Below the pieces are notes generated by a model that made no database searches, was not told the DNA's origin, and saw nothing but the letters and a program-made list of their open reading frames with translations. This document shows positions 3,728 through 29,612 of a stretch of DNA of 45,652 bases, piece after piece. Source of the DNA: a virus. The translations under genes were made by a program, and so were the position numbers. Position 1 is the stretch's first letter; every line of letters begins with the position of its first letter. The stretch spans positions 1-45,652 of the IMG/VR virus record IMGVR_UViG_3300027865_000013, one strand, 5' to 3'.

Positions 3728-3765
3728 ATTTTTTGATAATCAAACCTGTGGAAAAGGTGGTTTCA

Positions 3766-4797
3766 ATGAATGTTCTAAGTCTGTTTGACGGGATTTCCTG
3801 TGGGATGCTTGCACTGAATCAAGTAGGGTTCCATTTTGACTACTATGCTGATAATTTTTACTATGCTTCTGAAATTGATAAATTTGCAGAACAGGTCAGC
3901 AGGAAAAATTTCAAACAAATCATCAGACTAGGCAATGTCAAGAATCACAAAGACTGGGATTTGAATAATATTGATTTGTTAATGGGTGGTTCACCATGTC
4001 AAGGCTTTTCCATTGCTGGGAAGGGACTGAACTTTGAAGACCCAAGGTCACAGCTGTTCTTTGACTTTCTCCATTGTTTGGAAGACAGGAAGCCCACCTG
4101 GTTCCTGTTCGAAAATGTCATGATGAAGAAAACTATTGAAGCAGAAATCACAAAATTGCTGGGTGTTGAACCTATTACAATAAATTCATCACTACTGACA
4201 GCGCAGCACCGAAAAAGACTGTACTGGACAAACATTCCAAATATTACACAGCCCGAAGATAAAAATATTTTGTTAGGTGACATCATCCTGCAAGATGGAC
4301 TTCCTGTGACATACACCGAAAGAAGAACTGAAGAAGCAAAGCGAATCAGAAAGGAATATAAAAAACGTACAGGAAAGGATTTCTGTCCTAGACGAGCAAA
4401 GGAAATGATTCCCAGAACCGATGAAAAAACCGGATGCATCACAGCATCACTTTCAAAGGAACACCTGCTTCTTTCAGACAAAGCAATGAAATACATGGAT
4501 AGATGCACAAAGGATGGAAGGAACCACTGGGACTTTCAGCATCATTCCGATGTGCTTGATGGAAAATCAAGGGCAATAGTTGCAAATTTCTTCAAAGGTG
4601 TCCCCTATAGTGTCCTGAAGGACTGGGACTGTATCAGATATTTCCACCCTGTTGAATGTGAAAGACTTCAGGGAATCCCTGACAATTACACTGAAGGCAT
4701 CAGCAAAACACAAAGATATAAAGCGATAGGAAACGGTTGGACTGTCCCTGTCATTGCACACATACTTTCACACATTCCTTCAAAGGGGGGAAAATGA
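3766..4797 (+). CDS. DNA (cytosine-5-)-methyltransferase
   Basis: A 343-residue enzyme that should transfer a methyl group from S-adenosylmethionine to C5 of cytosine in DNA. Visible motifs are motif I SLFDGISCG (residues 5-13), motif IV GGSPCQGFS with catalytic Cys78, motif VI ENV (116-118), motif VIII QHRKRLYW (147-154), motif IX with HPVECERLQG, and motif X KAIGNGW near the C-terminus. The variable target-recognition part lies between motifs VIII and IX. No restriction endonuclease is adjacent, so it is an orphan enzyme, probably protecting phage DNA from host restriction or marking it. Its start follows AAAAGGTGG. It has its own promoter and ends in an ATGA overlap with the next gene. The target sequence cannot be read from the protein. 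Confidence 0.95.
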   Translation: MNVLSLFDGISCGMLALNQVGFHFDYYADNFYYASEIDKFAEQVSRKNFKQIIRLGNVKNHKDWDLNNIDLLMGGSPCQGFSIAGKGLNFEDPRSQLFFDFLHCLEDRKPTWFLFENVMMKKTIEAEITKLLGVEPITINSSLLTAQHRKRLYWTNIPNITQPEDKNILLGDIILQDGLPVTYTERRTEEAKRIRKEYKKRTGKDFCPRRAKEMIPRTDEKTGCITASLSKEHLLLSDKAMKYMDRCTKDGRNHWDFQHHSDVLDGKSRAIVANFFKGVPYSVLKDWDCIRYFHPVECERLQGIPDNYTEGISKTQRYKAIGNGWTVPVIAHILSHIPSKGGK

Positions 4798-6116: not shown

Positions 6117-6701
6117 TTAAGGATTTGTTACTGTGAAAGGTACTGTGATCAGAACATGCCCTTTATGTCTGTAAACAACTTCCTGGTAAGGGTCAGCAGC
6201 TTCATTCCCACACTGTGCTTTGTATTGTTTAGCGCTGAAACTTCCACCACCACCTGAAGAAGACATCAAGATTTTTCCAGTGGCATAATTTGTCGGACTG
6301 ACTTTGTAAATTATCAGACTTTTATCAGCTTCAAAATAAAGCCCTTCTTCACCTTCAGTTGCAACAGGTCTTAAAACAATGGAAGCAACCCCTGTAAAAC
6401 TTTGACCCGCGCCTGGGACTTGCTGAACAACATCAACAGAAAAACCAGCACTGTCTATCAGTTCAAGCTTCCAGTTTCCATTTCCGCTTCTGTTGGTGTA
6501 TGTGGTGTCAGTTGTAGCACATGCCATGTCAAAAAGAGCATCAGACTGTGAAGACCTGATTTCTTTTGTCTCAAAAAGACCGAAATCTTCCTGAACCATC
6601 TGTGAACCCAAACTTGTGACTGTAGGTGCAGCACTGACTGTCACCGAAAACAGAACCATTGTCAAAAAAACCGAAATCATAAGAAAACTGAAACGCTTCA
6701 T
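6117..6701 (-). CDS. Secreted/periplasmic protein of unknown function
   Basis: A 194-residue protein with a clear Sec signal peptide: a basic start (MKRF), a hydrophobic core to about residue 21 and a VSAAP-type cleavage site near 24. The mature part is beta-rich with two Cys (in MACATTD and AQCGNE) that could form a disulfide, and has a Gly-rich GGGGS segment. AGGGGG lies a few bases before the ATG and a strong terminator follows the stop. Phage genes of this kind at operon ends may alter the host envelope or block superinfection, but nothing in the sequence identifies its role. Confidence 0.8.
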   Translation of the reverse strand: MKRFSFLMISVFLTMVLFSVTVSAAPTVTSLGSQMVQEDFGLFETKEIRSSQSDALFDMACATTDTTYTNRSGNGNWKLELIDSAGFSVDVVQQVPGAGQSFTGVASIVLRPVATEGEEGLYFEADKSLIIYKVSPTNYATGKILMSSSGGGGSFSAKQYKAQCGNEAADPYQEVVYRHKGHVLITVPFTVTNP

Positions 6702-14177: not shown

Positions 14178-14660
14178 ATGGACTTAATGGAAGCAGTCCC
14201 TGTGGTACCAGTCTTGAACAATGCTGTCAGGGGACTATGCCTGAAGCCATATCACGGACATAAAAAAGGTTGTCCAAATTATGGAAAAGCAGACAGGTGC
14301 CCACCTAATGCAAAATTACTGTGGGACATTATTGATAAGGATAAGCCTGTTCTGTGTGTTTATAATAAATTTCCTTTCGGTGAACATGTGGCCAAAATGA
14401 AAAAACTCCACCCTGAATGGAGTCAGAAGCAATGTGAATGCTGTCTTTATTGGCAAGGGACTGCTAGAAAACAATTAAAAGAAAAAATCAAACGTGCTGT
14501 TGATGGTCGGGGTCTGTTCGGGAACACTTTAGAAATTCTCACAACACCTGAAGCCTGTGGTGTTGATGTAACAGCGACAATGAAAAGAATAGGTATTGAT
14601 CTTGAATGGCCGCCCAAAAAATTTACCTACCAAGTGGCAATTATTGGATATATGAAATGA
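14178..14660 (+). CDS. Cys-rich metal-binding protein (DUF2284-like)
   Basis: A 160-residue protein, start at 14178 behind GTGGGGAATTC. Ten Cys include a CPNYG (32-36) and CPPN (41-44) pair reminiscent of DUF2284 predicted metal-binding proteins, plus QCECC at about 85-89. This suggests a zinc or iron-sulfur site. It opens the replication operon, so a role in DNA metabolism is possible. The family match rests on the Cys pattern alone. Confidence 0.6.
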   Translation: MDLMEAVPVVPVLNNAVRGLCLKPYHGHKKGCPNYGKADRCPPNAKLLWDIIDKDKPVLCVYNKFPFGEHVAKMKKLHPEWSQKQCECCLYWQGTARKQLKEKIKRAVDGRGLFGNTLEILTTPEACGVDVTATMKRIGIDLEWPPKKFTYQVAIIGYMK

Positions 14661-15154
14661 AACAGAGCCTGATTGACAAATACAATGAAGCAGCAGGAAT
14701 CAAGGTGGACACCAAACAGCTTGATGACCTTGTCAGGGACTTCAGGAAGACAAGGGAAGACTACGATGAAAAGAAAAAAATCAGCACTGAAGCATTTCAT
14801 CTGGTGGAAAAGAAGGAAGCAAACCTTCTAAGGGTCTTGCAGAAAATGAGTATAGCAAAACACCGCTTGATAGGTGTTGGGACAGTGTCACTGAAGACTG
14901 AAACATCAGTCAAGATACCAAAGACCATCCCAGACAAAATCAAATTTTGGCAGTGGTTGAAAGGAAAAGGTGCAGGTGTCATGTGGGAAAACACAGGCAT
15001 TGACTCAAAAAGTTTGAATAGCCTCTATAAACAAGAACATGAAAAAGCTGAAGCAGCTGGGAAATCAAAACCAATCATTCCTGGTCTTGAAGAACCTAAA
15101 GAAAAATTCTCTGTTCGGCTTAGAAAGGAAAAACAAAATGACAGAAAAGACTGA
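14657..15154 (+). CDS. Hypothetical replication-operon protein with coiled-coil N-terminus
   Basis: A 165-residue basic protein, started by an ATGA overlap with the preceding gene. The first 85 residues are helical with heptad-like spacing; the middle has a short beta region (IGVGTVSLKTETSV) followed by IPDKIKFWQWLKGKG. Small proteins of this layout occur beside SSB-like genes in phages, but no function is assigned here. Confidence 0.65.
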   Translation: MKQSLIDKYNEAAGIKVDTKQLDDLVRDFRKTREDYDEKKKISTEAFHLVEKKEANLLRVLQKMSIAKHRLIGVGTVSLKTETSVKIPKTIPDKIKFWQWLKGKGAGVMWENTGIDSKSLNSLYKQEHEKAEAAGKSKPIIPGLEEPKEKFSVRLRKEKQNDRKD

Positions 15155-15935
15155 AGTTGTGGGTGCTGAAGGGGCAGCTATTGAAGTTGCACCTAATGCA
15201 CTTGACCTTGGGAACTGGAACCTTCCAAAGATTCAATCAAGGGATATCTACATTCCCAGAATCTTTGTGATGCAGGGACAGTCACCGCTTGTGGGACTAG
15301 GAAAAGCAATTGTGGGGGAACTCAGAAGCTTTCCTGATGGACTGCTTGTGGGTGGAATTGATGACCCGCTGGAACTTGTCCCAGTTTATTACAACCATTT
15401 TTTCAGGGAATTTCACCTTCTACCACAGGAGTCAACCACCGAGAAAAGAGAAAGAAGATTCATCAGAAAAATCCCGCTGACCGATGAAACTTCTAATCTT
15501 GAATGGAGAGAAGAACTTCCAGACGGAATAACTCTCCAGCGTGACAGGTGCATGGACTTGTTTTGTCTGCTCCCTTCAGAAATTGAGAAAAAGGAAGCTG
15601 TCCCCTATATAATTTCATTCAGCAGAACTTCTTTCCCTGCTGCAAAGAACTTTGGGACAATCATGACTAAGCTTGCAATGAAAAACCTTCCACCACCATG
15701 TGCTGTTCTTGAATTGAGTATTGAAAGACAGACAAAGGAAGATAACACATATATGGTCATGTGTTTGAAACAGAAAAGAGAAGGGACACCTGAAGAAATC
15801 AATGAAGCTTTCAAGTGGGTCCAGCCTATTTCACAGGGGACTGTGAAAATTACTGAAGACCCTGAAGAACTTGACACACAGGAATCAGGGGCTTCTGTTG
15901 GGGATGTTCTGAAAGATGATGATATTAATTTCTAA
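15138..15935 (+). CDS. Putative single-stranded DNA-binding protein with SSB-like acidic tip
   Basis: A 265-residue protein, start at 15138 behind AGAAAGGAAAAAC and overlapping the preceding gene. It is predicted beta-rich through its body, with an acidic, Glu/Asp-rich tail ending in DDDINF (260-265). This differs at one position from the DDDIPF tip with which bacterial SSB recruits partner proteins. Placed between other replication genes and directly upstream of the polymerase, it is a good candidate for the phage SSB. The OB fold itself cannot be confirmed by eye. Confidence 0.6.
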   Translation: MTEKTEVVGAEGAAIEVAPNALDLGNWNLPKIQSRDIYIPRIFVMQGQSPLVGLGKAIVGELRSFPDGLLVGGIDDPLELVPVYYNHFFREFHLLPQESTTEKRERRFIRKIPLTDETSNLEWREELPDGITLQRDRCMDLFCLLPSEIEKKEAVPYIISFSRTSFPAAKNFGTIMTKLAMKNLPPPCAVLELSIERQTKEDNTYMVMCLKQKREGTPEEINEAFKWVQPISQGTVKITEDPEELDTQESGASVGDVLKDDDINF

Positions 15936-23557: not shown

Positions 23558-23941
23558 TCAACTCCTGATGATGATCTGTGACCTTCTGATGATCAATCTA
23601 GTGTCAGTCAGTGGGTCACCTATCTTGATTAAAATAAATCCTGACCCAGTTGGAACAGGAACTGTTGTCAATTTTCCTGGTAGTGTGTGACTCAAGAAAT
23701 ACTTCTTTGACGCATCAAGTCCAGAAAATATTTCATCAGTGACACCATCACAAAGAAGGTCACAAAGAACTGAAGTGTGCTTTTTTACGACTATCCCAAC
23801 CACAAGGGCATTCAGCTTGCTGTCTGCAAGTGCTTGAACAAGGACAGCACCATTCTTTCGGACTGCATCAGCAAGTTCAACTGAAGCTTCACATGCAACC
23901 CTTCTGATTAGTCCTGTTTTCTGTCTGGTGGTGTTTGCCAT
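23558..23941 (-). CDS. Beta-rich fibre-associated domain protein
   Basis: A 127-residue protein. After a short helical N-terminus it shows SGLDASKKYFLSHTLPGKLTT and a GFILIKIGDPLTDTRLII pattern, a beta module often found at the ends of phage tail fibres (the YFLS, PG and VG/IG landmarks). It probably forms part of the fibre or an attached tip. Its 5' end overlaps the transglycosylase gene by 53 bases. Confidence 0.6.
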   Translation of the reverse strand: MANTTRQKTGLIRRVACEASVELADAVRKNGAVLVQALADSKLNALVVGIVVKKHTSVLCDLLCDGVTDEIFSGLDASKKYFLSHTLPGKLTTVPVPTGSGFILIKIGDPLTDTRLIIRRSQIIIRS

Positions 23942-24419
23942 ATTCAGAAGCCTTAACCCTTTTTAAGTTGTTCAGAACTTTATCAACATAGTGTTGATTT
24001 CTATAGTTTCCATTTGCTTTTTTCCTAGGTTTCCCCTGATTGTAAGCTGAAATGAAATCATAGGAATTTGGATAAGTCCTTTTCAGGTGTGCAAGATATT
24101 TGCAACCATAATAAATCCCCATTTCAGGGTCACACAACACTGGGAAATAATCATTGAATCCAAACTCCTGTGCAACTGAACCCATTATTTGCATCAGTCC
24201 CCATGAAATTTTTTCACCTATTTCTTCAGTCTTGCTTGACATCCCAAAGAACCTGACAGACTTAACAAACCACTTCCAGTGATCTTCATACCGGATAGCA
24301 TTTGTTTCACCATTGCTTTCAGTGACAATTATTGCAGCAATCAGCATTGGGTCAAAGCCCCAAAGTCTAGCTTGTTTTTCAATACAGCACCAGAAAGGAA
24401 AATCTTTGATTTCCATCAT
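23889..24419 (-). CDS. Lytic transglycosylase endolysin (SLT/GH23)
   Basis: A 176-residue enzyme that should cleave the glycan strands of peptidoglycan. Landmarks of the soluble lytic transglycosylase family are ESNGETNA with catalytic Glu34, SWGLMQIMG (about 72-80), YYGCKYLAHLK (about 103-113) and AYNQG (about 125-129). It has no signal peptide, so it needs the holin-like protein encoded just upstream (ATGA overlap) to reach the cell wall. It is the most likely endolysin of the phage. Confidence 0.88.
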   Translation of the reverse strand: MMEIKDFPFWCCIEKQARLWGFDPMLIAAIIVTESNGETNAIRYEDHWKWFVKSVRFFGMSSKTEEIGEKISWGLMQIMGSVAQEFGFNDYFPVLCDPEMGIYYGCKYLAHLKRTYPNSYDFISAYNQGKPRKKANGNYRNQHYVDKVLNNLKRVKASEYGKHHQTENRTNQKGCM

Positions 24420-24650: not shown

Positions 24651-26810
24651 TTATTTTGCACCAACACAGAAGATATTGAAAGCCTGGTCAGCAGCAGCAT
24701 CATGCAATGCTGAAGTGTCCAGACTATACGTGACCACATCAACAGAAGAACTTGAAGGTGCAGTTTGTATAGTTGCAATTTTTTGGACAGTGCTTCCTGA
24801 AAAAGCTTCAACAATTTTTGGAAAACAAATAGGTGCTAAAGAAAAAGTTCCTGCTGTGAAATTGATTGTCACATCACCTGTCCCATTGTCATCTACTGTT
24901 GAAATCCAAGAACCATCCTGTTTCTGTATTGTGGGGACACCCGCTGGAAAAGTAATTTCAGCTGAAGCAATCCTGACGCCGTTAACATCAGGACTGACAA
25001 CCTGATTATTCTCTTTCAGAATGGTTTGCTGGTGAATATTTGTCAGTGGGAACACAGTGAATGATGTAGGATTCATGTAAACATCAGAAGCTGTCATTGT
25101 GCCTGATACCTGCTGTTTCCCGTAAACCCTGATAGTCTTTTCCCCAGCTGAAGAAAAAGAGAAAATCCCACAAAGTGTGAAAGGCTGGTCATGCTGTGCA
25201 TTGAAGGAACCTGCATTGCTGTTCTGCCTTGCTTTGTCTGCAAGCACCATCCCACCATCTTGAAGTTCTGTGTCAGTGTCATCATTAGCAGTTTCAACCA
25301 TCTTGAACTGCGCTGTCAGATCACCACCACCTGTGGATGTTGTGTCAATTGAATGTGTGAAACCACTGCAAGCTTGATATTTCCCAGCCCTTGGAACCGT
25401 GAAAGATATACCAAAGTTTTCACTACCTGAACAGGTAGTTCCTGAAGAAGCTTCACCATCAGGACAAGCAATCCCCACAGTGTGGGAACCTGATCTTTGT
25501 GTCAAAGTCAGTGCTGAAGCATTCAATGGGGAATAACTTGCAATTGTAGAAGTCCCCATTGCTGGTCCGGTCCCTGAAATTTCAGCATCTACATGCCAAC
25601 CAGATTGACTGACTGACACAGCGTCCTGTCCTTCTGTTGGGTAGTAGTAAACATGAATTTTCATGTCTTCTTTCCCACCAGACTGATTATGAAGTAAAAT
25701 TGTTTCTGACCCATCAGAAGTAAAAGCCCTTAATCTGAACCTGACATTTGACTGTGATGCAGCATAGGTGAAATTTCCTACTAGCAAGTTCTTACTTTCT
25801 ACATTAGACACATTATCCCTGCTGACTGTCACATGACCTTCTTCAGTTGCACCATCATATATATGACCATACCCGACAACACCTGTTGAAACACCCGACA
25901 ATTCAAGCTTTACCCCTGAAACCATAACCTTGTATGTGCCTACTGGAAGATATGCAAATTGAATTTCAGGAATTTTAGTTCCTGGCGCATTTGCTTTGCC
26001 TGAAGCAGTTGGTGTGTTGCAATCACTATCAACAGGAAACTCATCAACAACATTTCCCGTGATGCTCCATGCACAGCTAGATGATGCACCATTCCAGTCT
26101 AAACTTCCATAAAGTGTTGACTGTGAAATTTTGATTTGATTTGTCTCAGAACCTAGATGCAGATCATCAAGTGTTATTTCAGCAGCATTAGTTGTTGACT
26201 CTAATCTAAACTGAAGTGTGCTTGCACCTTCTGCACAGGTGAAAGTCATGAAATCTTCAGTCCATTCAGTTACAGGATTGATTTCCTTTTCCACAAGAAC
26301 ATCAGTCCCATCATACACCTGAAATTTGATGTCCCCCAGTACACCTGAAGCCCAAAGATATTTCATCCTGACCTGACAGGTTTTTCCCTGAAGTCCTACA
26401 GGGACACTGACAGCTGGTGTGTTCTGGAAATATTCAGTTGTCAGTGCTGCGTCCCACTTTGCAGACTTTGCACCAAATGCAGGGGATGTTGTCTCTTCAG
26501 CAAGTGTCCCTGCTCCGGTTGCCTCATACCCAGAAACACCTGATTCAAAGTCAAAGTTTTCAAGCAGATTCACACCACCTGCACCACCTGAACCTGAACC
26601 CATGTTTGAAAAGTTTGTTCCCCCATCATTGGAAAACTGCATCTTGCTTGATGCTTCATCACCTTTTATCTGGAAATTGTCACCAAACTTGATGACCTTA
26701 TCAGATGCTGAACCTGGCTTTCCAATTTTGAATTCATCATCAGCAACCCTTGCACCCATTAGTGCTATAGACATTAAAAAAACTAGAGCTATGTGAAAAA
26801 ACTTCTTCAT
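24651..26810 (-). CDS. Large fibre-like protein with Sec signal peptide
   Basis: A 719-residue protein. Residues 1-20 form a clear signal peptide (MKKFFHIALVFLMSIALMGA), followed by ADDEFKIGKPGSASDKVIKFGD and a FSNDGGTNFS segment typical of some phage fibre starts. Residues about 80-220 look like a carbohydrate-binding jelly-roll (NLLENFDFESG, later EITLDDLHLGS). Further beta domains with paired Cys follow (ACPDGEASSGTTCSG, QACSGF). A signal peptide on a structural-looking phage protein is odd. It may be exported during infection to coat the cell, or assembled from the periplasm. It lies between the tail fibre and the holin genes. Confidence 0.75.
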   Translation of the reverse strand: MKKFFHIALVFLMSIALMGARVADDEFKIGKPGSASDKVIKFGDNFQIKGDEASSKMQFSNDGGTNFSNMGSGSGGAGGVNLLENFDFESGVSGYEATGAGTLAEETTSPAFGAKSAKWDAALTTEYFQNTPAVSVPVGLQGKTCQVRMKYLWASGVLGDIKFQVYDGTDVLVEKEINPVTEWTEDFMTFTCAEGASTLQFRLESTTNAAEITLDDLHLGSETNQIKISQSTLYGSLDWNGASSSCAWSITGNVVDEFPVDSDCNTPTASGKANAPGTKIPEIQFAYLPVGTYKVMVSGVKLELSGVSTGVVGYGHIYDGATEEGHVTVSRDNVSNVESKNLLVGNFTYAASQSNVRFRLRAFTSDGSETILLHNQSGGKEDMKIHVYYYPTEGQDAVSVSQSGWHVDAEISGTGPAMGTSTIASYSPLNASALTLTQRSGSHTVGIACPDGEASSGTTCSGSENFGISFTVPRAGKYQACSGFTHSIDTTSTGGGDLTAQFKMVETANDDTDTELQDGGMVLADKARQNSNAGSFNAQHDQPFTLCGIFSFSSAGEKTIRVYGKQQVSGTMTASDVYMNPTSFTVFPLTNIHQQTILKENNQVVSPDVNGVRIASAEITFPAGVPTIQKQDGSWISTVDDNGTGDVTINFTAGTFSLAPICFPKIVEAFSGSTVQKIATIQTAPSSSSVDVVTYSLDTSALHDAAADQAFNIFCVGAK

Positions 26811-26834
26811 GGTGTCCCCCTGTTAATTGTCTTC

Positions 26835-27430: not shown

Positions 27431-28021
27431 TTATTCAAATTTGAAAATGACTGATGCATTAGCTGGTTTCAATTTCAGAATTGTCAATTCAACTGTATTA
27501 TTTCCGAAAGTCCTTAAAGGTTCCCCTGCTTTTCCCTCACCCGCTTTGAAAGTCTGAATCAATGTTGCTGGTCCCTCAACTAGAAACCAATGGTCCCAAA
27601 GATCATTTGTTAATGGGTCACCTGCTCTACTGCGTCCTGCCTGAAATCTTTTATAACTTGAAACTTGAATTGTAAATCCAAATGCTTCAGCAATCCTTTC
27701 AAAAAAGAATCTGTCCTGTCCACCGCCCAAAGTAAGCTTCTGATTCACATGACTTCTACGCTGTTGGAATGTTGGGTCAACACCTGTTGTTTCATCAGGA
27801 AGTGCTGTGACACGTTCCCACTCAGGCAATAATTCAGAAGTGGTCCTGGGGTCAACCTCATCAAATAAGTTTTTCCCCCTTTGTTCCACCCTGTCAAATT
27901 CTAATGCACAGGCTTGAAGAAGTTTCCACAAGGTGCTTCCATCAATCTGTGCTGCAATCCAAGCTTTCCCCCTTGGAAGAAGCTTCTGAAGCAAAATTTT
28001 ATATTTTGGCTCTGTTCCCAT
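27431..28021 (-). CDS. Baseplate protein, Mu gp48-like (DUF2313)
   Basis: A 196-residue protein with the DUF2313 pattern: LLPRGKAW near the N-terminus, DPRTTSELLPEWERVTALPD (about 56-75), RRSHVNQKL and a FTIQVSSYKRF segment. Proteins of this family sit at the baseplate periphery between the wedge and the fibre. It lies 3 bp downstream of the gp47-like gene, matching Mu order. Confidence 0.88.
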   Translation of the reverse strand: MGTEPKYKILLQKLLPRGKAWIAAQIDGSTLWKLLQACALEFDRVEQRGKNLFDEVDPRTTSELLPEWERVTALPDETTGVDPTFQQRRSHVNQKLTLGGGQDRFFFERIAEAFGFTIQVSSYKRFQAGRSRAGDPLTNDLWDHWFLVEGPATLIQTFKAGEGKAGEPLRTFGNNTVELTILKLKPANASVIFKFE

Positions 28022-28024
28022 TGT

Positions 28025-29158
28025 TTACACATCACCCCAAGTAAATGTCCCCAGCTTGACAAGATCACCTGATGTGGTGGGTGTGAAGTCAGCTGTGGGG
28101 GAAACCATTGCATGGTCTGTTTCACCCGCTGCAATTGACACAGCTTCCCTGATTCGACTTATTAAAATTGTACCTGTGTAGACTTCAGTTGGACTTTTCC
28201 AAGCACCCTTTGGTTTTGCGTCCCTGAAAATAAGATCACTCAGTGATGCTTCAATTGCATCCTGAACAGCTGTGTTGTTAGGTGCAATATTTATTTCCAT
28301 ATCAAGTGCAATAGGATTTGGTGCAAACACAGTTGGGTCTGCTGTGACAGGTGCACCAATAGTCTCACCAGTGACAGGGTCTTGATGTTCTTCAATATAA
28401 GCCTGAACTTCAGCAATTTTTGGTGCTGAAGGAATAATATCAATTTCCCCATCTTCCACAAATGTGACACCTACAGTGTTTGTGCCTGGTCCGGTCCATT
28501 GTGGATATGTCCAAGCCCTTGTGACACCCGCAACTTCCAAGCACCATTGAATATAGTCATTAACATCACCACCAGCAGGGGGTTTCTGAATTCTTGCAAG
28601 CAGTCTGGAACGTAACGAATCATCATCTTCTTCAATCTCACCCTCAAAATTAACACTTGAAACTAACAATGAAGAATCCACATCAGCAATCGGTGATGTG
28701 AAAATCAATTCATCACCTGTTTCCATATTTGAATCAAGTTCAGTGGTATTTGGTGAAGATGCTGTCACTATACCAGTAGCAGTCCCGCCTGAAATGGTCA
28801 CTTCTGCATCAAGTGTGTATAATGCACCATCAGACCTTTGAAACTCTGTCCCAATAACAACAGGTCTTCCATCAAGACCAGTAAAGTCAACATTCAATTT
28901 TGCAAATGTTGCAGGAACCCTTGTCACACCCCTGAAAGAAGCCTGTCTTTCCAAAATAGCCTGTTCAGAAGTGTCTGGAAAAACCTGTTCCACTATCCAA
29001 GCAAGATGACCATGAAGAACATGGGAAACACCTGCAATTGCCCTTGCAAATGCCTTCAAAAAAGACCTTCTTAAAATTGTAACAATACCTAACACAGACC
29101 TGAAGTCACCTTCAACCCGTGAAATCAACTGTGTCAATGTGGGTCTTTCATATGGCAT
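28025..29158 (-). CDS. Baseplate wedge protein J-like (Mu gp47)
   Basis: A 377-residue protein of the baseplate J family. It has the typical N-terminus (RPTLTQLISRVEGDF), a helix then SEQAILERQASFRGVTR, the core beta region, and the GGDVNDYIQWCLEVAGVTRAW segment (about 193-213) conserved in J/gp47 proteins. It forms the wedges around the tail spike hub. Gene order with the gp46-like and gp48-like genes is Mu-like. Confidence 0.92.
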   Translation of the reverse strand: MPYERPTLTQLISRVEGDFRSVLGIVTILRRSFLKAFARAIAGVSHVLHGHLAWIVEQVFPDTSEQAILERQASFRGVTRVPATFAKLNVDFTGLDGRPVVIGTEFQRSDGALYTLDAEVTISGGTATGIVTASSPNTTELDSNMETGDELIFTSPIADVDSSLLVSSVNFEGEIEEDDDSLRSRLLARIQKPPAGGDVNDYIQWCLEVAGVTRAWTYPQWTGPGTNTVGVTFVEDGEIDIIPSAPKIAEVQAYIEEHQDPVTGETIGAPVTADPTVFAPNPIALDMEINIAPNNTAVQDAIEASLSDLIFRDAKPKGAWKSPTEVYTGTILISRIREAVSIAAGETDHAMVSPTADFTPTTSGDLVKLGTFTWGDV

Positions 29159-29159
29159 T

Positions 29160-29612
29160 TTATCCCCTTTTCAATTCTTGACCGTCCCAAATAAAAGAAA
29201 AAGATTCCTTCCCCCCATCCGGTCGGGTTATTTCAACCACATTGACAAGGTGTCCCCTGTCATTGTAGGAAGAAACCACTGAAACAGACTGTGCAATACC
29301 ATCTTCTATCATCCACTGCAAGCAGTTCTTCAATCCTGTTTCATATGACTTCCTAACTTTTTCAGTTCTTTTTTCCCTTTCAAGTGTCCAAAGGTTTGAA
29401 CCATGCTTGTCCTGGTCAGCTTCAGAAAACAGATCACCCCACCAACCCCTTCTGCTGGACTGCTCTGCTGGAAGTTCTTCTTCAGGCACCCGCATATCAG
29501 AAAATACTGAAATCAACACAGAAGTTTCAAGACCTTCTTCACCAACAATATCACCATTAAGCAGTGACAAGTCCATGAATCCTTCACCCTGTATTATTGC
29601 AGCATCGTTCAT
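29160..29612 (-). CDS. Baseplate protein, Mu gp46-like
   Basis: A 150-residue protein with the GP46 pattern: a DLSLLNGDI start, LETSVLISVFSD, SRRGWWGD (about 52-59) and SNLWTLEREKRT. Equivalent in position to Mu gp46 / T4 gp25-like lysozyme-fold wedge proteins. It sits between the spike and J-like genes. Confidence 0.9.
   Translation of the reverse strand: MNDAAIIQGEGFMDLSLLNGDIVGEEGLETSVLISVFSDMRVPEEELPAEQSSRRGWWGDLFSEADQDKHGSNLWTLEREKRTEKVRKSYETGLKNCLQWMIEDGIAQSVSVVSSYNDRGHLVNVVEITRPDGGKESFSFIWDGQELKRG

Follow-up and report, generated by a model that had tools for sequence, protein, structure and literature searches.

The tail region of the viral record analysed here, a stretch of 45,652 bases referred to as the window, encodes a 719-residue fibre-like protein (P0001) with a signal-peptide-like N-terminus. 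We know of no route through Sec in the assembly of tailed phages, and the question raised by this locus is whether P0001 is an unusual component of the virion or a protein that the infected cell exports. The open reading frame, proposed earlier in a sequence-only reading of the window, was confirmed, with an ATG start on the minus strand and a GGGGGA ribosome-binding site (Table 1). Its upstream neighbour, the short tail-fibre protein, possesses neither cysteine nor a signal peptide; a small membrane-protein ORF and the gene of an SLT transglycosylase come after the P0001 gene. The 563-aa fibre-like protein is a candidate for the canonical virion fibre of this phage. In its head module the phage follows the lambda-portal/protease-capsid fusion type, and for replication it encodes a DNA polymerase A and a primase. 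Among the window ORFs tested, a set that omitted some small ORFs, none was recognised as the gene of an integrase, a transposase or a repressor; as no lysogeny gene was recognised, lysogenic conversion forms no part of the core claim made below. Other ORFs encode a C5 cytosine methylase or, in two cases, match Pam3 gp33/gp34-like families (3733-4797 and 14606-15935, plus strand).

Table 1. Features of the P0001 gene, its product and its surroundings in the window
Feature	Position	Strand	Basis or remark
CDS, exported fibre-like protein P0001 (putative)	24651..26810	minus	719 aa, ATG start
Ribosome-binding site GGGGGA	26815..26820	minus	Read from sequence, ~5 nt upstream of the P0001 ATG
Predicted Sec signal peptide, residues 1 to ~20	26751..26810	minus	Home-made screen and inspection; kept in all relatives
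Short N-terminal segment, residues 24-78 (KIGK...KMQFSNDGG...GSGSGG)	26577..26741	minus	Common to L002 and the G016 prophage
CBM-like beta-sandwich, residues 79-225, Cys pair C145/C192	26136..26576	minus	Pfam, model, fold match, family profile
TNF/C1q-like tip domain, residues 230-390	25641..26123	minus	Homologous to Bd2734 tip (PDB 8OKW), phmmer E=7e-10
Further beta region (putative), residues ~400-595	25026..25613	minus	Aligned with G356, L076 and L077 proteins
C-terminal domain, residues 602-719, with C662 and C715	24654..25007	minus	Common to G356 and G155 signal-peptide proteins
Short tail-fibre protein, 185 aa	26861..27418	minus	PHROG 2617, E=5e-12; directly upstream of the P0001 gene
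Mu-type baseplate genes gp48, gp47 (J), gp46	27431..29612	minus	Pfam and PHROGs
SLT transglycosylase, probable lysis/wall enzyme	23889..24419	minus	Pfam SLT E=1e-16; downstream of the P0001 gene
Fibre-like protein, 563 aa	21465..23156	minus	YadA-stalk match just below cut-off; 2 Cys, no signal peptide

The N-terminus of P0001 (MKKFFHIALVFLMSIALMGARVADDEF) has textbook n- and h-regions, with a charge of +2 in the former and an uncharged hydrophobic core in the latter, and the rest of the protein holds no hydrophobic segment comparable to this core. It passed a home-made signal-peptide screen, cruder than SignalP, and was the sole protein to do so among the window's 16 ORFs of at least 250 aa; 93 of 20,000 shuffled versions of P0001 (0.5%) passed. 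The c-region is not ideal, as cleavage would fall between LMG and A or between MGA and R, and a site after A23 would have an arginine at position -3. Taken alone the signal peptide is suggestive, and it is the relatives described below that make the case for it strong: one was kept in 15 of the 15 family proteins examined, while the remaining N-terminus varies. The Sec signal peptide claimed in the sequence-only reading was in this way confirmed, with the reservation that its cleavage motif is weak. A second signal-peptide-like N-terminus (MKRFSFLMISVFLTMVLFSVTVSA) occurs in the window on a 194-aa protein (6117-6701, minus strand) with no match in Pfam or PHROGs.

In 14 further phages and prophages the corresponding slot was found to hold the gene of a signal-peptide protein, making fifteen with the window. 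Thirteen of these were found via similarity to the family (prophages G016, G356, G155, G160 and G153; contigs L002, L074 and L076-L079; ct8d5349, annotated as a podovirus; and phi1422), and the fourteenth, prophage G273, was reached via its terminase only. The slot follows the tail-fibre/baseplate genes and, where the contig continues, precedes genes for small membrane proteins, spanin-like lipoproteins or endolysins. The family spans Mu-type contractile, phi1422-type, long-tailed and apparently short-tailed phages and its presence is independent of tail type, prophage morphologies having been read from gene content. At each of eight family loci, exactly one ORF of at least 400 aa passed the screen (8/41 in total), and every time this was the family gene; in seven control stretches, 2 of 69 ORFs of at least 250 aa passed. 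No large signal-peptide ORF occurred in related tail modules from phages with other hosts, among them Bordetella phage PBb001 and Mu. Because similarity to the family led to most of the loci, these counts give no unbiased frequency. Among terminase matches with contigs reaching the tail end, the gene was present in G356, G273 and G016. No family gene occurred in the stretch read of prophage G223 (a distant terminase match), nor in phi1402, another cultured Bdellovibrio phage, and the family is therefore not universal. Searches by tblastn revealed no relative of P0001 in 50,697 phage records or 72,556 plasmids, and a whole-protein pattern scan of viral contigs gave no match. The G155 prophage encodes a tyrosine integrase.

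The family proteins are mosaics in which different domains link different pairs; P0001 and the L076 protein, for instance, match at 27.7% over 658 aa. In P0001, residues 81-207 were matched by Pfam CBM_4_9 (PF02018; E=3e-5, 24.9 bits), without reaching the curated cut-off of 25.9. A structure model of residues 79-225, built from six relatives (pLDDT 82.8, pTM 0.78), resembled the porphyran CBM 8xmz (Z 15.0, rmsd 2.1 over 131 residues) as well as CBM22, CBM4 and CBM16 (Z 13-14). By prediction this domain is a CBM beta-sandwich, a shared fold that does not prove sugar binding, and the carbohydrate-binding-like region proposed earlier is borne out to that extent. The full-length monomer model of P0001 was too poor for use (pLDDT 44.9) and residues ~400-595, a presumed beta region that aligns with relatives, have no confident model; they are possibly a second tip-type domain. 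The C-terminal domain (602-719) was also found in short secreted proteins outside phage regions.

The ten cysteines of P0001 only partly follow the earlier description, in which paired cysteines were placed in the later domains, as they occur in the CBM-like domain as well. Disulphides are predicted for C145-C192 and C246-C264. The profile of this domain found 11 of the 15 family members at E<1e-15, and all eleven have two cysteines in the expected part; five of them (phi1422 and L076-L079) lie outside the set from which the profile was built, yet have the pair. Most family phages have additional fibres that lack a signal peptide and are nearly free of cysteine. The family proteins contain 112 cysteines in 8,152 aa, against 8 in 3,313 aa for the adjoining upstream fibre/tail proteins without a signal peptide (Fisher p ~2e-9, which is only a guide because residues are not independent). 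Of the phi1422 proteins, gp68 has eight cysteines, and the fibres gp67 and gp73 lack them altogether. The signal peptides, together with this enrichment over ordinary fibres, make export into an oxidising compartment the simplest reading, and we infer export of P0001 with good support.

It was the tip domain that linked P0001 to fibres of predatory bacteria. Mosaic adhesive trimer (MAT) fibres have been described in Bdellovibrio bacteriovorus by Caulton et al. 2024 (PMC10769870). Their defining feature is a conserved beta-rich domain of ~130 aa right behind the signal peptide, present in 21/21 MATs; C-terminally tagged MATs that were tested, including Bd2734, were located on the predator surface, deletion of bd2734 led to slower predation, and one MAT fibre binds prey glycans (PMC10769870). 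PDB 8OKW comprises residues 691-843 of Bd2734, a MAT fibre with a TNF-like tip (PMC10769870), and residues 230-390 of P0001 are homologous to this tip. A full-length MAT of 843 aa (L022/L030), encoded in a Bdellovibrionota genome outside any phage region, shares 29% identity over 157 aa with the same domain, and BLAST showed a significant match between the two proteins at residues 232-387 only. P0001 resembles MATs in having a signal peptide (by the crude screen), a long beta-rich mosaic build and swappable tip domains, one of them of a known MAT tip family. It differs from them in being phage-encoded and in carrying a CBM-like domain in place of the MAT N-terminal domain; an S74 domain, unlike in MATs, was not found. 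Comparison of the N-terminal profile with one MAT N-terminus (L022/L030) by hhalign gave a probability of 0.2%. Since the MAT N-terminal domain was not found, P0001 is, as judged against that one N-terminus, not a MAT by definition, although by analogy it may work like one.

A pattern scan of genome contigs for the Bd2734 tip gave no match, and genomes of the phylum were for this reason reached with a 16S signature of Bdellovibrio; all matches were Bdellovibrionota. P0001 had no match in 13 Bdellovibrionota genomes, and a search over 369 gave matches in seven. The baseplate J protein of the window has a single relative in these 369 genomes, located in the G016 prophage, where gene order is the same as in the window (gp46, gp47, gp48, a short fibre gene and a P0001-related signal-peptide protein). 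The large terminase (TerL) shares 59% and 57% identity with the prophage terminases of G356 and G273, respectively, and at best 50% with phage records, among 898 with a match. Wolbachia phage WO, with a terminase at 50%, was dropped as a pointer to the host, the Bdellovibrionota prophage terminases being closer. Comparison of the DNA polymerase gave no indication of the host. The terminase identities and the baseplate J relative make Bdellovibrionota the likely host, and the phage most likely infects Bdellovibrio-type predatory bacteria, the predatory habit of the hosts being assumed.

Signal-peptide proteins encoded in tail regions are not without parallel. Lom of phage lambda is a surface protein with a signal peptide whose gene lies inside the tail region; it is a small outer-membrane barrel and not a fibre. 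The PblA/PblB proteins of streptococcal prophages are phage tail-type proteins that serve as host adhesins, but their hosts are Gram-positive. A putative signal peptide has been reported for pneumococcal PblB, while PblB of S. mitis reportedly reaches the surface via phage-induced permeabilisation and is required for tail morphogenesis (PMC4508584). Signal-peptide-bearing phage morons are already known as a kind, and so are phage tail proteins that serve as adhesins. For a recurrent family of exported fibres among the phages of predatory bacteria, a literature search thin in subscription papers gave no earlier description. The one cultured case is gp68 of the Bdellovibrio bacteriovorus phage phi1422 (NC_019525), annotated merely as a hypothetical protein. 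Like P0001, it has a signal peptide and a CBM-like domain with a Cys pair, and its gene is located behind the tail-fibre gene gp67 and ahead of lysis-type genes; its remaining domains are unlike those of P0001, and predicted cleavage of its signal peptide would leave Q20 as the first residue. Direct search between the two gave no match at E<=1, and their link is the shared domain profile. It has been reported that phi1422 is lytic, and virion proteomics of this phage was not found in that paper (PMC3391216).

The explanation that we favour, and place just on the probable side, is that P0001 is a Sec-exported, disulphide-stabilised, fibre-like adhesin made during infection, most likely displayed on the infected predator, and not an ordinary cytoplasmic tail fibre. 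The phage would make P0001 in the infected cell and the host Sec machinery would export it, presumably with cleavage of the signal peptide; disulphides would form in the oxidising periplasm or outside, and the protein may trimerise. The infected predator, or else the interior of the bdelloplast, would most likely be the place of display, with the C-terminal tip-type domains and the CBM-like domain binding glycans or another cell-surface partner. P0001 would then work as a counterpart, carried by a phage, to the MAT fibres of Bdellovibrio, encoded in a slot between tail-fibre and lysis genes. The host of such a phage must enter prey to grow, so that better attachment to prey would pay the phage, and this is our favourite among the proposed benefits. 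Adhesion is likewise favoured among the functions suggested in the sequence-only reading, the others being a block on superinfection and action on polysaccharide. The export and glycan-binding architecture of that reading has stood, given the family-wide signal peptide, the conserved Cys pair and the MAT-tip homology; the probable host, the link to MATs and the wider family had been missed. As phi1422 is lytic, a benefit via lysogeny alone does not explain the family, and the window phage is perhaps lytic too, outside any such benefit. Against the adhesin reading, the gene sits in the late tail region, the place of virion genes, and the cleavage motif is weak.

There are several rival explanations. 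P0001 could be a receptor-binding fibre of the virion that takes an unusual route, being exported, given disulphides while folding in the periplasm and added to particles upon lysis or later, or else held in the membrane by an uncleaved signal. The gene lies directly behind baseplate/fibre genes in all phages of the family, the tip domains are of receptor-binding type, and solved phage tailspikes contain CBM-like domains (K2-2 TSP, CBA120 TSP4). Furthermore, the P0001 N-terminal segment has a weak match (E=5e-4) in a fibre without a signal peptide, which has 3 Cys in 814 aa and is encoded in a phage region of genome G036 (L062, 2964-5408, plus strand), a natural contrast to the exported family. 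We nonetheless regard a virion role as rather doubtful, because Sec use is to our knowledge without precedent in tailed-phage assembly, the same family occurs alongside different tail types, most of its phages have other fibres that lack a signal peptide, and a domain for baseplate attachment was not recognised. That an ordinary cytoplasmic fibre has a hydrophobic N-terminus by chance, mistaken for a signal peptide, would accord with the weak cleavage motif and the crudeness of the screen, but the conservation in all fifteen proteins despite otherwise differing N-termini, the ~0.5% chance by shuffling for a single protein and the enrichment in cysteine make this extremely improbable.

If exported, P0001 might instead mask or occupy the receptors that phages use, either on the infected cell or on debris from lysis, so that superinfection or the loss of progeny is prevented. 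Known phage exclusion proteins are small, whereas members of this family are large multidomain mosaics, and the diversity of their tips goes beyond the need of masking one receptor; we consider this role unlikely. Export and domains of glycan-binding type would fit it, and it would be sensible for the lytic phi1422 (PMC3391216) and for a phage without lysogeny genes. Action together with the lysis genes, for example on predator polysaccharide or on that of the prey shell around it, is very improbable: holin-, spanin- or endolysin-like genes always adjoin the family gene, but no catalytic domain was identified by Pfam, NCBIfam or PHROGs.

Should the adhesin explanation hold, phages may change what predators stick to. 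A wider proposal, which we offer tentatively and think on balance doubtful, is that 'auxiliary predation genes' are routine in the phages of predatory Bdellovibrionota, these genes encoding Sec-exported MAT-like fibres that would stand on the infected predator and alter or widen the prey that it grips. If so, the tail region of predator phages would be a source for diversifying predator adhesins. The present locus joins the field of phage-borne surface proteins to that of prey recognition in predatory bacteria. MAT fibres have been named phage-like for their folds, and the phage family described here encodes secreted relatives of at least one MAT tip. With P0001 on the predator surface, phages may help to set prey range; were it a virion component, a tail fibre would be routed via Sec. 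The family includes a cultured phage-host system, phi1422 and Bdellovibrio bacteriovorus, that is open to testing.

Genome G356 combines a window-type head module (terminase 59% identical) with a long-tail gene set and not a Mu-type contractile tail (L028 and L039), a case of module exchange. Smaller signal-peptide proteins are encoded near the exported fibre in phi1422 (gp75, 170 aa; L070, 11870-12382, plus strand) and in the G016 prophage (239 aa; L029, 17963-18682, plus strand). Short secreted Bdellovibrionota proteins ending in the P0001 C-terminal domain are encoded on the minus strands of L024 (1357-1887), L047 (1498-2166) and L048 (1492-2076), that of L024 among surface-sugar biosynthesis-like genes.
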